From Gammaproteobacteria bacterium (GTDB taxonomy: Bacteria; Pseudomonadota; Gammaproteobacteria; Burkholderiales; Gallionellaceae): a DNA stretch of 64,000 nt. Made by a program: the position numbers and the translations under genes. The notes below the pieces were generated by a model. That model searched no databases. It saw nothing but the letters and a program-made list of their open reading frames with translations, and had not been told where the DNA came from. Where the stretch lies: the NCBI GenBank assembly GCA_018813765.1, contig JAHJBC010000007.1, forward strand, positions 124,001 through 188,000, given 5' to 3'. The stretch's first letter is position 1; each line of letters opens with the position of its first letter. Positions 35,183-56,967 of this stretch are shown here, piece after piece.

Positions 35183-35230
35183 CTAACCCCTCCTAACCTC
35201 CCCTGACAAGGGGAAGTTAGGAGGGGTTAG
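35183..35230. repeat. Nested palindrome between purE and purC
   Basis: CTAACCCCTCCTAAC-CTCCCCTGACAAGGGGAA-GTTAGGAGGGGTTAG; perfect 15-bp outer arms. Confidence 0.9.
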
Positions 35231-35255
35231 AATTTTGAAGAACCAAGGAAACATC

Positions 35256-38058: not shown

Positions 38059-38180
38059 GCCGTCATTCCGGCCCTTCGGCAGGCTCAGGATAAACTGACC
38101 TGCGGTCAGGCCGGAATCCAGCAAGACAAAAATGCATTTTATTTAGAACCACTGGATTCCGGCCTTCGCCGGAATGACGA
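38059..38180. repeat. Paired GTCATTCCGGC...GCCGGAATCCAG repeats; left copy interrupted by a second repeat type
   Basis: GCCGTCATTCCGGC | CCTTCGGCAGGCTCAGGATAAACTGACCTGCGGTCA | GGCCGGAATCCAG ... CTGGATTCCGGCCTTCGCCGGAATGACG. Confidence 0.75.
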
Positions 38181-38242
38181 AGTCGAGAAGCTTCATGGAG
38201 CGCGCCCATTATAATGCGCGGGCATATTCAACGAGAGACAAC

Positions 38243-39010: not shown

Positions 39011-39016
39011 AAAAAT

Positions 39017-39135
39017 CCCGTCATTCCGGCGCAGGCCGGAATCCAGTGAGGTTTCAAATATGCTTTTGAAGTTGTCCTTGATGCGCAAGGGCCAATTTAA
39101 CTGACTGTATCCCGGCCTGCGCCGGGATGACGGGA
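39017..39135. repeat. Inverted pair of ATTCCGG(N)CCGGAAT repeats
   Basis: CCCGTCATTCCGGCGCAGGCCGGAATCCAGT ... CTGTATCCCGGCCTGCGCCGGGATGACGGGA. Confidence 0.85.
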
Positions 39136-41671: not shown

Positions 41672-42274
41672 CTATGCCGCATGTTCGAAGCGATACACCG
41701 CCGTGCTGCCGCGCAGGTTGGGCAGCACCTGCACGTCATGTCCACCGCACATCACTTGGCGGCCGAGGATGCGGATGTCCAGGTGTGCGCAGAGGATCTC
41801 GAAATCGTCCAGCGTACACAGGTGCACGTTCGGGGTGTCGTACCACTGGTACGGCAGTTCCTTTGAAACAGGCATGTTGCCGAGCATCACCTGCAAGCGG
41901 TTCTTCCAGTAGCCGAAGTTGGGGAAGCTGATGATGCCCTCGCGGCCGACGCGCACGATCTCCTTCATCAGCGCCTCGGTGTGGCGCGTGGCCTGCAGCG
42001 TCTGCGACAGGATGACGTAGTCGAATGATGCATCCTCGAAATCGGCGAGGCCGGAGTCGAGGTCGTTCTGGATGACGTTGACGCCATTGGCGATGCAGGT
42101 GGCGATCTTCTTGTCGTTGATCTCCACGCCGTAGCCGCGCACTTCGCGCGTCTCGCGCAGGTAACGCAACAGGCTGCCGTCGCCGCAGCCGAGGTCGAGC
42201 ACGGAGGAGCCTTGCGGTATCCACGATGCGATGGCGGCGAAGTCGGGGCGGGATTCGATGATTGAGGTATTCAC
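41672..42274 (-). CDS. metW: Methionine biosynthesis protein MetW
   Basis: [31 protein letters not shown]; overlaps metX. Confidence 0.94.
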
Positions 42275-43404
42275 AGGGAACCCTCCGCTGCCACGTTATT
42301 CAAATAATTGCGCATCACCGCAACATACTGCTCATCCTGCATCAGGAAGGAATCGTGGCCGTGCGCGGAGGTTATCTCGGCATAGCTCACGTCGCGTTTG
42401 TTGTGCAGCAATGCATGCACGATCTCGCGCGAGCGCTCGGGCGCGAAGCGCCAGTCGGTGGTGAATGACACAACCAGGAATTTCGCTTTTGCCACGGCGA
42501 AAGCGCGGTTCAGGTTGCCGCCGAGTTCGCGCGCCGGGTCGAAATAGTCCAGCGCCTTGGTCATCAGCAGATAGGTGTTGGCGTCGAAATACGCGGCGAA
42601 CTTGTCGCCCTGGTAGCGCAGGTAGGACTCGATCTGGAATTCGATGTCATAGCTGAAATTCAGTTTGCCGTGGCGCAGCTCGCGACCGAACTTGTCCGCC
42701 ATCGCGTCGTCGGAAAGATAGGTGATGTGTCCCAGCATGCGCGCCAGGCGCAGGCCGCGGGTGGGCACCACGCCGTGCTGGTAGAAATCGCCGCCGTGGA
42801 AATCGGGATCGGTCAGGATGGCATTGCGCGCCACGTCGTTGAAAGCGATGTTCTGCGCGGTCAGATGCGGCGCCGAGGCGATGGCCAGCACATGACGCAC
42901 GCGATCGGGATAAGACAACGCCCACTGCATCGCCTGCATGCCGCCCAGACTGCCGCCGATGACTGCGGCGAACTGTGTGATGCCGAGCTGCTCGGCCAGG
43001 CGCGCCTGCGATGTCACCCAGTCTTCGACCGTCACCACCGGAAAGCTCGCGCCGTAAGGCTTGCCGGTCTGCGGATCGATGCTGGCGGGGCCGGTGGAAC
43101 CGTGACAGCCGCCGAGGTTATTGAGGCCGACGACGAAGAACTTGTTGGTGTCGATAGGCTTGCCCGGCCCCACCATGTTGTCCCACCAGCCGATGTCCTC
43201 GGTGTCGTCCTCGTAGTAGCCCGCGACATGGTGATGACCGGACAGCGCGTGACAGATCAGGATGGCGTTGGACTTGTCGGCGTTGAGCACGCCATAGGTC
43301 TCGTACCACAGCTCGTAGCACGGCAATACCGCGCCGCTCTTGAACGTGAGCGGCTGGTCGAAGGTGGCGCGTTGCGCCTGCACGATTCCAACTGAGTTAT
43401 TCAT
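42271..43404 (-). CDS. metX: Homoserine O-acetyl(acyl)transferase
   Basis: [50 protein letters not shown]. Confidence 0.96.
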
Positions 43405-43412
43405 TTCGTCCC

Positions 43413-43509
43413 AAAAACAAAACCCGCACAGCCTGAAGCTAGAGCGGGTCGACTCGCTTTAGCTGGAATATTTAACGTGCCCCGCAAGCTGAACTCAAAT
43501 CGGCACGGG
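43413..43509 (-). promoter_or_regulatory. SAM-II (SAM-alpha)-like riboswitch with candidate terminator in the metX leader
   Basis: RNA CCCGUGCC-GAUUUGAGUUCAGCUUGCGG-GGCACGUUAAAUAUUCCAGCUAAAGCGAGU: P1 CGUGCC/GGCACG, pseudoknot GCUUGC/GCGAGU, SAM-II-like GAUUU, GUUAAA and GCUAAA; followed by ACCCGC...GCGGGU-UUUGUUUUU. Confidence 0.8.
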
Positions 43510-43551
43510 ATGGAGTGTCCGTGTTTTGCTGAAAGCTGTCAACCGCAGGCG

Positions 43552-46140: not shown

Positions 46141-47237
46141 TGTTCGATCTTTCGCGGTGTGGATTCGTCGGTGAATTTTAGCCGTTTCTGCATGTTCGCG
46201 GTGAGATGCACCACGCCTTGACCGTCTATCAACAGAGCTTCCCCGATCTGCATGCTGCGGGCCGCTTCCAGCCAGCCCTGCTCGCCGGAGACGAACAGCG
46301 GCTTTGAGTGCGAGTCCGAGCGCAGACCCGCCCTCTCACCGCGCGTGAGGATGGTGACCGCCTGCACGCCCTGCACCGGATAACCGCTACGCGGGTCGAT
46401 CAGGTGGCAATAGCGTTTCCCGTCAAGCTCGAAATAGCGCTGGTAATCGCCCGAGGTGCCGATGGCCTCGCCGTCATGCAATTCCAGGATCGCAATCGGC
46501 CCCGGCCGGCGCGGGTGCTGGATGCCGACCACCCAGGGACGCGTACCGTGCGTACCCAGCGCCATCACGTTGCCGCCGATGTTGATGAGCGCGTTGTGGA
46601 TGCCCTGTTCATTGAGAATGGCGGCGGCGCGGTCCAGCGCGTAGCCTTTGGCGTAACCGCCAAGGTCGAGTTTGACGGCGCGATTTCTACTGCTAACTGC
46701 AACCCACCCCAACCCTCCCTTGTCAGGGAGGGAGCCGTCCGCCCCTCCCCTGACAAGGGGAGGCTGGGAGGGGTTGGAGATTTTCAAATCGCTCATCCGC
46801 GGCTTCGCCTTCACCAGCGCGGCGATCTTCTTCGCGTCCGGCAACTCGGCTTTGAATTCCTCGGCCTGAAAACCCCAGGCCTTGATCAATCCGCCAATGG
46901 CCGGATTGAACGTTCCGCCCGATTGCGCCGAGACCTGCGCGGCATCCTGCAGCATTGCCGCCAGCTCGGGCGAGACGCGCTTGCGCTTGCCCTGCACGAT
47001 GGCGGCATTGAGTTCGCTCAATTCGGAAGGACTCCATGCGTGCAGCATGTCGTGCAGGCGCTGGAACTCATGCATGACGGCAACAGTCGCTTGCCGCGCT
47101 TTTTCTTCGTCCGCGCCGTAGATGCTCACATCCACCTGCGTGCCGAACACATAGGCCTGCTCCTGGTAGAACGGCTCTTTGCCGCAGGCGGACAACAACA
47201 GGGCGAGTAGCAGGGCAAGGACGCGGAAGAAGCTCAC
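46137..47237 (-). CDS. apbE: FAD:protein FMN transferase (ApbE)
   Basis: VSFFRVLALLLALLLSACGKE lipoprotein signal (GTG start), FGTQVDVSIYG, AVKLDLGGYAKGYALDRAA, LINIGGNVMALG; in-frame repeat-derived insert NPSQPPLVRGGADGSLPDKGGLG. Confidence 0.9.
   Translation of the reverse strand: MSFFRVLALLLALLLSACGKEPFYQEQAYVFGTQVDVSIYGADEEKARQATVAVMHEFQRLHDMLHAWSPSELSELNAAIVQGKRKRVSPELAAMLQDAAQVSAQSGGTFNPAIGGLIKAWGFQAEEFKAELPDAKKIAALVKAKPRMSDLKISNPSQPPLVRGGADGSLPDKGGLGWVAVSSRNRAVKLDLGGYAKGYALDRAAAILNEQGIHNALINIGGNVMALGTHGTRPWVVGIQHPRRPGPIAILELHDGEAIGTSGDYQRYFELDGKRYCHLIDPRSGYPVQGVQAVTILTRGERAGLRSDSHSKPLFVSGEQGWLEAARSMQIGEALLIDGQGVVHLTANMQKRLKFTDESTPRKIEQ
46700..46778. repeat. Double palindrome inside apbE
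   Basis: CCTCCCTTGTCAGGGAGG and CCTCCCCTGACAAGGGGAGG flanked by CCCACCCCAACC / GGGAGGGGTTGG. Confidence 0.9.
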
Positions 47238-56825: not shown

Positions 56826-56831
56826 TGATAT

Positions 56832-56958
56832 GCCGTCATTCCGGCGCAGGCCGGAATCCAGTTGATTCGCAAACCCCGCTTGGCGGGACGACTGCTGACT
56901 TTGTCCGCTTCGCGGAATTGTTTCAAAGCTGGATTCCGGCCTGCGCCGGAATGACGGG
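56832..56958. repeat. Inverted pair of ATTCCGG(N)CCGGAAT repeats
   Basis: GCCGTCATTCCGGCGCAGGCCGGAATCCAG ... CTGGATTCCGGCCTGCGCCGGAATGACGGG. Confidence 0.88.
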
Positions 56959-56967
56959 AATTTAAGA

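Follow-up and report, generated by a model that had tools for sequence, protein, structure and literature searches.

SAM-II riboswitches are known from α-proteobacteria and from a small number of other lineages, Bordetella among them (PMC1273637), and published work on them has concentrated on one translational example (PMC6061858). In S. meliloti, the SAM-II copy on metZ is predicted to terminate transcription and yields an sRNA, and its partner copy on metA is translational (PMC9373788). The SAM-V core superposes on that of SAM-II; in SAM-V, the uridines of UUGC have the first two adenosines of GCUAAA as their partners, and the U of this segment binds the adenine of SAM (PMC6061858). For β-proteobacteria, Leyn 2014 describes a novel 'metXZ' RNA that precedes metXW or metZ, contains a pseudoknot formed by regions 1-4 and 2-6 and is followed by a terminator, with a speculative antiterminator, and gives SAM_alpha as reported solely in Rhizobiales and Rhodobacterales (PMC4239095). 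For the Burkholderia sRNA family RF02424 (Bp2_287), cis regulation of methionine metabolism was suggested by its authors (PMC3521395). Both the riboswitch kind itself and the existence of SAM-II elements with terminators in β-proteobacteria are already known.

The locus considered here lies in a 64-kb window, by which the whole analysed stretch of DNA is meant. It resembles the α-proteobacterial SAM-II elements (Corbino 2005, PMC1273637) in its P1 helix and H-type pseudoknot, in the segments GAUUU, UUGC and GCUAAA, in its association with met genes, and in having a promoter adjoining P1 and a terminator downstream; however, P2a comprises about 2 bp (GC/GC) here and 5 GC-rich bp in the α-proteobacterial examples. 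As in S. meliloti, the genome has a SAM-II element with a terminator before metZ and two copies on successive pathway genes, although the partner copy is on metX here and on metA in S. meliloti (PMC9373788). Its SAM-binding core is nearly identical to that of SAM-V, which differs in being translational and in having an extra P3 helix (PMC6061858). Judged from its sequence, the metX leader carries a genuine SAM-II riboswitch, with SAM as the probable ligand by homology. We place at roughly 0.87 the probability that it is a transcriptional OFF switch of this class, in which SAM would lead to formation of the terminator and metX-metW would be turned off. The features of the locus are listed in Table 1.

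Table 1. Features of the metX leader and adjoining genes (window coordinates).
Feature	Coordinates	Strand	Basis
-35 promoter element TTGACA	43537..43542	(-)	conserved spacing in relatives
-10-like element GACACT, 17-nt spacer	43514..43519	(-)	conserved in metX leaders
SAM-II (RF00521) match	43442..43516	(-)	38.6 bits vs gathering score 36
P1 5' strand CGUGCC	43502..43507	(-)	changes on both sides in all 6 pairs
L1 GAUUU, predicted triplex third strand	43497..43501	(-)	conserved in alignment; role by homology (PMC6061858)
P2 5' strand GCUUGC	43484..43489	(-)	invariant; canonical pairing complete in 108/108 leaders
P1 3' strand GGCACG	43476..43481	(-)	pairs with CGUGCC 43507-43502
P2 3' strand and predicted SAM pocket GCUAAAGC	43456..43463	(-)	GCUAAA invariant; role by SAM-V homology
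Antiterminator 5' strand AGCUA-A-AGCG, A43459 in 1x1 mismatch	43455..43464	(-)	lowest-energy nascent-leader fold, -10.5 kcal/mol
Antiterminator 3' strand CGCU-C-UAGCU	43437..43446	(-)	folding of window leader and relatives
Intrinsic terminator hairpin ACCCGC/GCGGGU, inner UAGCU/GGCUG	43422..43449	(-)	about -14.6 kcal/mol
U tract UUUGUUUUU	43413..43421	(-)	directly after terminator stem
metX, homoserine O-succinyltransferase type	42271..43404	(-)	NF047916 683.8 bits, cut-off 560
metW, overlaps metX	41672..42274	(-)	TIGR02081 267.2 bits, cut-off 189.5

The SAM-II class had been proposed in a sequence-only reading of this DNA, all of whose strings and coordinates were recovered on the minus strand, and the check with Rfam covariance models agrees with it: RF00521 (SAM_alpha/SAM-II) exceeds its cut-off with an E-value of 3.6e-05 over the 64-kb window and of 1.2e-07 over 221 nt, and the aptamer match is beyond chance since RF00521 is the sole Rfam family to pass its own cut-off within the 64 kb. 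The next gene downstream is metX, as that reading had stated (NF047916, 683.8 bits); a MetX search in viral contigs found no relatives. A second SAM-II copy precedes metZ (O-succinylhomoserine sulfhydrylase) elsewhere in the genome, scoring 35.6 bits, slightly below the RF00521 cut-off, and the copies on metX and metZ therefore stand before the genes for two successive steps between homoserine and homocysteine. In the 3.14-Mb genome of origin, a model constructed here from 42 aptamers, the window aptamer being one of its 42 rows, detects the metX copy (2.2e-11), the metZ copy (3.2e-14) and no others, the next match having E = 0.15. Matches to RF00521 occur in 112 of 158 Gallionellaceae genomes (above the cut-off in 51), and promoter, aptamer and terminator are common to about 110 Gallionellaceae leaders; the 110 that were extracted fall into a metX and a metZ group.

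The promoter is well conserved among these leaders. In 40/42 metX and 55/59 metZ leaders, GAUUU is preceded by TTGAC(N) at a distance of about 41 nt, GACACT, GAAACT or GATACT occurs at equal spacing in nearly all metX leaders, and the complete arrangement of TTGACA, 17 nt and one of these hexamers stands at a constant distance before P1 in 40 of the 42 members of the metX group. Because of this constant distance, the transcription start is predicted near 43507, at the base of P1, where it has also been reported for SAM-II (PMC1273637). A simple promoter scan missed the promoter and a simple terminator scan missed the terminator, both owing to their fixed rules; the terminator loop exceeds the 3-8 nt limit of the scan.

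The sequences and their comparison show the aptamer with its covarying P1, the promoter, the terminator, the potential for an antiterminator and the gene context; we infer the SAM response, the direction of the switch and its kinetic ordering as follows. The RNA would start at a sigma-70-type promoter ending just ahead of P1. With SAM, loop UUGC and GC-(U)-AA in the GCUAAAGC strand would pair and close the ligand pseudoknot; with that strand occupied, the segment ACCCGC...UAGCU would be free, the ACCCGC/GCGGGU terminator and U tract would form, and metX-metW would be off. Without SAM, the strand AGCUAAAGCG, made just earlier, would capture CGCUCUAGCU upon its emergence and hold the terminator 5' arm, so that polymerase would reach metX. 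The outline of this mechanism was right in the sequence-only reading, with one pairing wrong, as GCUUGC has GCUAAAGC and not GCGAGU as its partner. Mutually exclusive terminator and antiterminator structures are supported both comparatively and energetically.

The predicted antiterminator is well supported by comparison and folding, if not proven. The entire ligand-binding strand (AGCUAAAGCG) can pair with CGCUCUAGCU, and as this pairing overlaps the terminator 5' arm, SAM pocket and antiterminator would be mutually exclusive. The small hairpin suggested earlier (AGCGAGUCGACCCGCU, 43458-43443), using the pseudoknot strand and the terminator 5' arm, is supported by folding, but its extent was underestimated: the helix is AGCUA-A-AGCG / CGCU-C-UAGCU, reaching beyond AGCG/CGCU, and therefore consumes the entire SAM-binding strand. 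For the window leader alone the fold (-10.5 kcal/mol, z -1.2, p 0.12) is not significant against shuffles, so relatives were used, and the case is built on non-independent relatives and mononucleotide shuffles. Among 94 assigned leaders, the antiterminator is formable in 41/41 metX and 53/53 metZ leaders, in all of which at least six of the nine bases of GCUAAAGCG pair downstream; the mean number of paired pocket bases is 8.2 for metX and 8.0 for metZ, as against 3.4 and 3.6 in shuffles, and the mean z is -2.8 and -3.6, respectively, relative to mononucleotide shuffles and for non-independent relatives. For L033, L080 and L108 the scored fold extended beyond the terminator, and their numbers are less clean. 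In four leaders with a changed terminator arm (L007, L048, L054, L063) the pocket strand has a new complement, the antiterminator being kept in L048/L054 as GCUAAAGCGACU/AGU-CCGCUUUAGC. The growing window transcript folds into the antiterminator at 75-83 nt and into the terminator at 92 nt or more, and with the pocket strand blocked, which mimics the SAM-bound state, the full leader folds into P1 and the terminator. The conserved UAGC is partly shared with the terminator inner stem, which counts against the antiterminator reading.

The same tendency was noted outside Gallionellaceae, where most of 123 loci (90 named loci, among the matches listed, and 33 further ones) can form the antiterminator: pairing averages 6.4 vs 3.5 shuffled in the 90 named loci, among the matches listed, and 6.7 vs 3.2 in the 33. 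The named loci, at least 118 in number, were collected by means of a pattern with a fixed core, and the sample is therefore no measure of core conservation or total spread. In α-proteobacteria the pairing falls mostly on the P2a strand (4.4 vs 2.7 shuffled), whereas the antiterminator here engages the strand of the SAM pocket. Two narrower tests were set aside: one starting at UAAA underestimated the pairing by leaving out the outer GC pairs, and one for an uninterrupted complement of CUAAAGCG gave only modest enrichment in the named loci among the matches listed (24%, as against 4-5% for two control words of matched composition), so that folding was used in its place.

It is conceivable, if rather unlikely, that an additional or alternative antiterminator is formed by the free aptamer loop CAGCUUG with CAGGCUG in the terminator 3' half. 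The window allows seven such pairs, and metX leaders frequently have CAAGCUG at the CAGGCUG position; however, this antiterminator is absent from several leaders (L007, L027, L048), its CAGGCUG segment emerges later than the terminator 5' arm, and the conservation of that segment is also explained by the inner AGC/GCU stem.

The terminator, also foreseen in the sequence-only reading, is present in the window as a hairpin with a U tract, ACCCGC (43449-43444) being able to pair with GCGGGU (43427-43422) on the minus strand, and is conserved in relatives. Automatic detection recovered it in 102 of 108 distinct leaders, with a median of -14.6 kcal/mol and a median of 6 U among the 8 nt that follow the stem, and the outer stem shows compensatory variants among relatives (CCCGC/GCGGG, CCCGT/ACGGG, CCCGG/CCGGG, CCCAG/CTGGG). 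The hairpin is still possible in the remaining six leaders, and in five of these its loop contains an inserted repeat. A repeat (GCATAGCCAATCGGCTAGGCTGTCAAAAGACGACAGCC...) sits inside the metZ terminator loop of L032, L036, L039, L079 and L104 and leaves outer stem and U tract intact. Repeats were also noted in the window itself: a palindromic one at about 46700-46790 (-) lies in frame inside an apbE-like gene and adds about 30 residues (SNPSQPPLVRGGADGSLPDKGGLGW...), with a related copy at 35188-35236, and the CTGGATTCCGGCCTGCGCCGGAATGACG repeat occurs in direct and inverted orientation at 38152-38182, 39015-39047, 39105-39135, 56830-56862 and 56929-56959.

These terminator data bear on whether control is mainly translational, the metX ribosome-binding site being hidden either by the terminator hairpin or by the fold with SAM bound. 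With about 17 nt between its end and the AUG, the hairpin could crowd the ribosome, and translational action is described for the crystallised Sargasso SAM-II as well as for the metA riboswitch of S. meliloti (PMC6061858, PMC9373788). Against this stand the U-rich tract after the hairpin in the 102 leaders, the retention of the terminator stem through compensatory changes and the position of the SD-like GGGA outside P2, which leave translational control a slim chance.

In a covariation check of 42 diverse aptamers, the P1 pairing CGUGCC/GGCACG, already recognised in the sequence-only reading, shows compensatory changes at 6/6 pairs, with 92% of its cells paired across the alignment; over the whole structure, 29 cells have changes on both sides vs 8.8 shuffled. 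The pocket nucleotides GAUUU and GCUAAA are both present in the window and conserved in the alignment. By SAM-V homology, U43487-U43486-G43485-C43484 would pair with G43463 C43462 (U43461) A43460 A43459, a register extended by C43488-G43457 and G43489-C43456, and U43461 is expected to pair with the adenine of SAM. All 42 aligned aptamers and all 108 leaders (42 metX, 66 metZ) keep the UUGC / GC-U-AA complementarity, and P2, being invariant, offers no covariation test. The earlier proposal of a GCUUGC/GCGAGU pseudoknot, which would make the linker and not the pocket strand the switching element, has six possible pairs in the window leader. However, these are complete in 22/108 leaders (7/42 metX, 15/66 metZ), whereas GCUUGC/GC-UA-AAGC is found in all, and they conflict with the UUGC/GC-U-AA core of the SAM-V structure (PMC6061858). 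The GCGAGU register was rejected on conservation in favour of pairing with GCUAAAGC, intact in 108/108, and appears very improbable. Least credible is a degenerate or decoy aptamer acting as a constitutive attenuator without ligand response, for although the RF00521 score is modest (38.6 vs about 80-90 bits in α-proteobacteria), all SAM-contacting positions known from SAM-II and SAM-V are intact and invariant and a model including β-proteobacterial sequences gives the window aptamer 61.7 bits.

As described in Leyn 2014, the metXZ element (PMC4239095) agrees with the elements found here in position, taxa and topology, and metZ copies in Methylophilales and Nitrosospira belong to both (here among the matches listed); metXZ is very probably of the SAM-II type. 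Among the papers searched, none besides Leyn 2014 was found to mention metXZ and riboswitch together. RF02424 (PMC3521395) represents the same genomic element upstream of metZ/metX, but is modelled on the opposite strand. In 200 Burkholderiales genomes, 25 of 42 RF02424 matches overlap RF00521, all 25 on the opposite strand, and the SAM-II core lies on the opposite strand in 27/30 RF02424 loci (L280-L309), 19 of these 27 having a recognisable metX, metZ/Y, metH or metK downstream. This suggests that RF02424 was modelled on the antisense strand of β-proteobacterial SAM-II. The weak RF02424 match in the window (43428-43503 (+), 17.7 bits, cut-off 70) is accordingly the antisense of the SAM-II aptamer, and a chance origin was rejected. 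Both links, of metXZ with SAM-II and of RF02424 with its opposite strand, appear new. It seems likely that metXZ and RF02424 together represent a β/γ-proteobacterial SAM-II whose antiterminator captures the whole ligand-binding strand, unlike the P2a platform of α-proteobacteria.

Variants of the element were observed among these loci. Burkholderia-type copies have a hairpin inserted between P1 and GCUAAA (L280 1536-1605, L298, L307, L309), which is probably why RF00521 misses them. The same aptamer type precedes metK and metH in other Burkholderiales genomes (L287, L290, L292, L298, L307), so the regulon is wider than metX/metZ. Tandem aptamers occur in γ- and some β-proteobacteria (L222 2420-2600, where they precede metK; L152, L179, L181, L244, L248), where the copy with the terminator comes first and a variant carrying GAUUUAAG and CAACUUGC second; in the variant, the loop and the P2 strand change from G to A together.

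The model built here detects the element in 146 of the 200 Burkholderiales genomes, RF00521 in 87 and RF02424 in 40, at cut-offs that differ (0.01 vs 0.001); current Rfam models thus miss many β-proteobacterial SAM-II elements. The finding explains the probable control of entry into methionine synthesis in many β-proteobacteria. If the proposed mechanism is true, SAM and the antiterminator would compete for the same nucleotides, and this proposal of strand competition is simple and directly testable.
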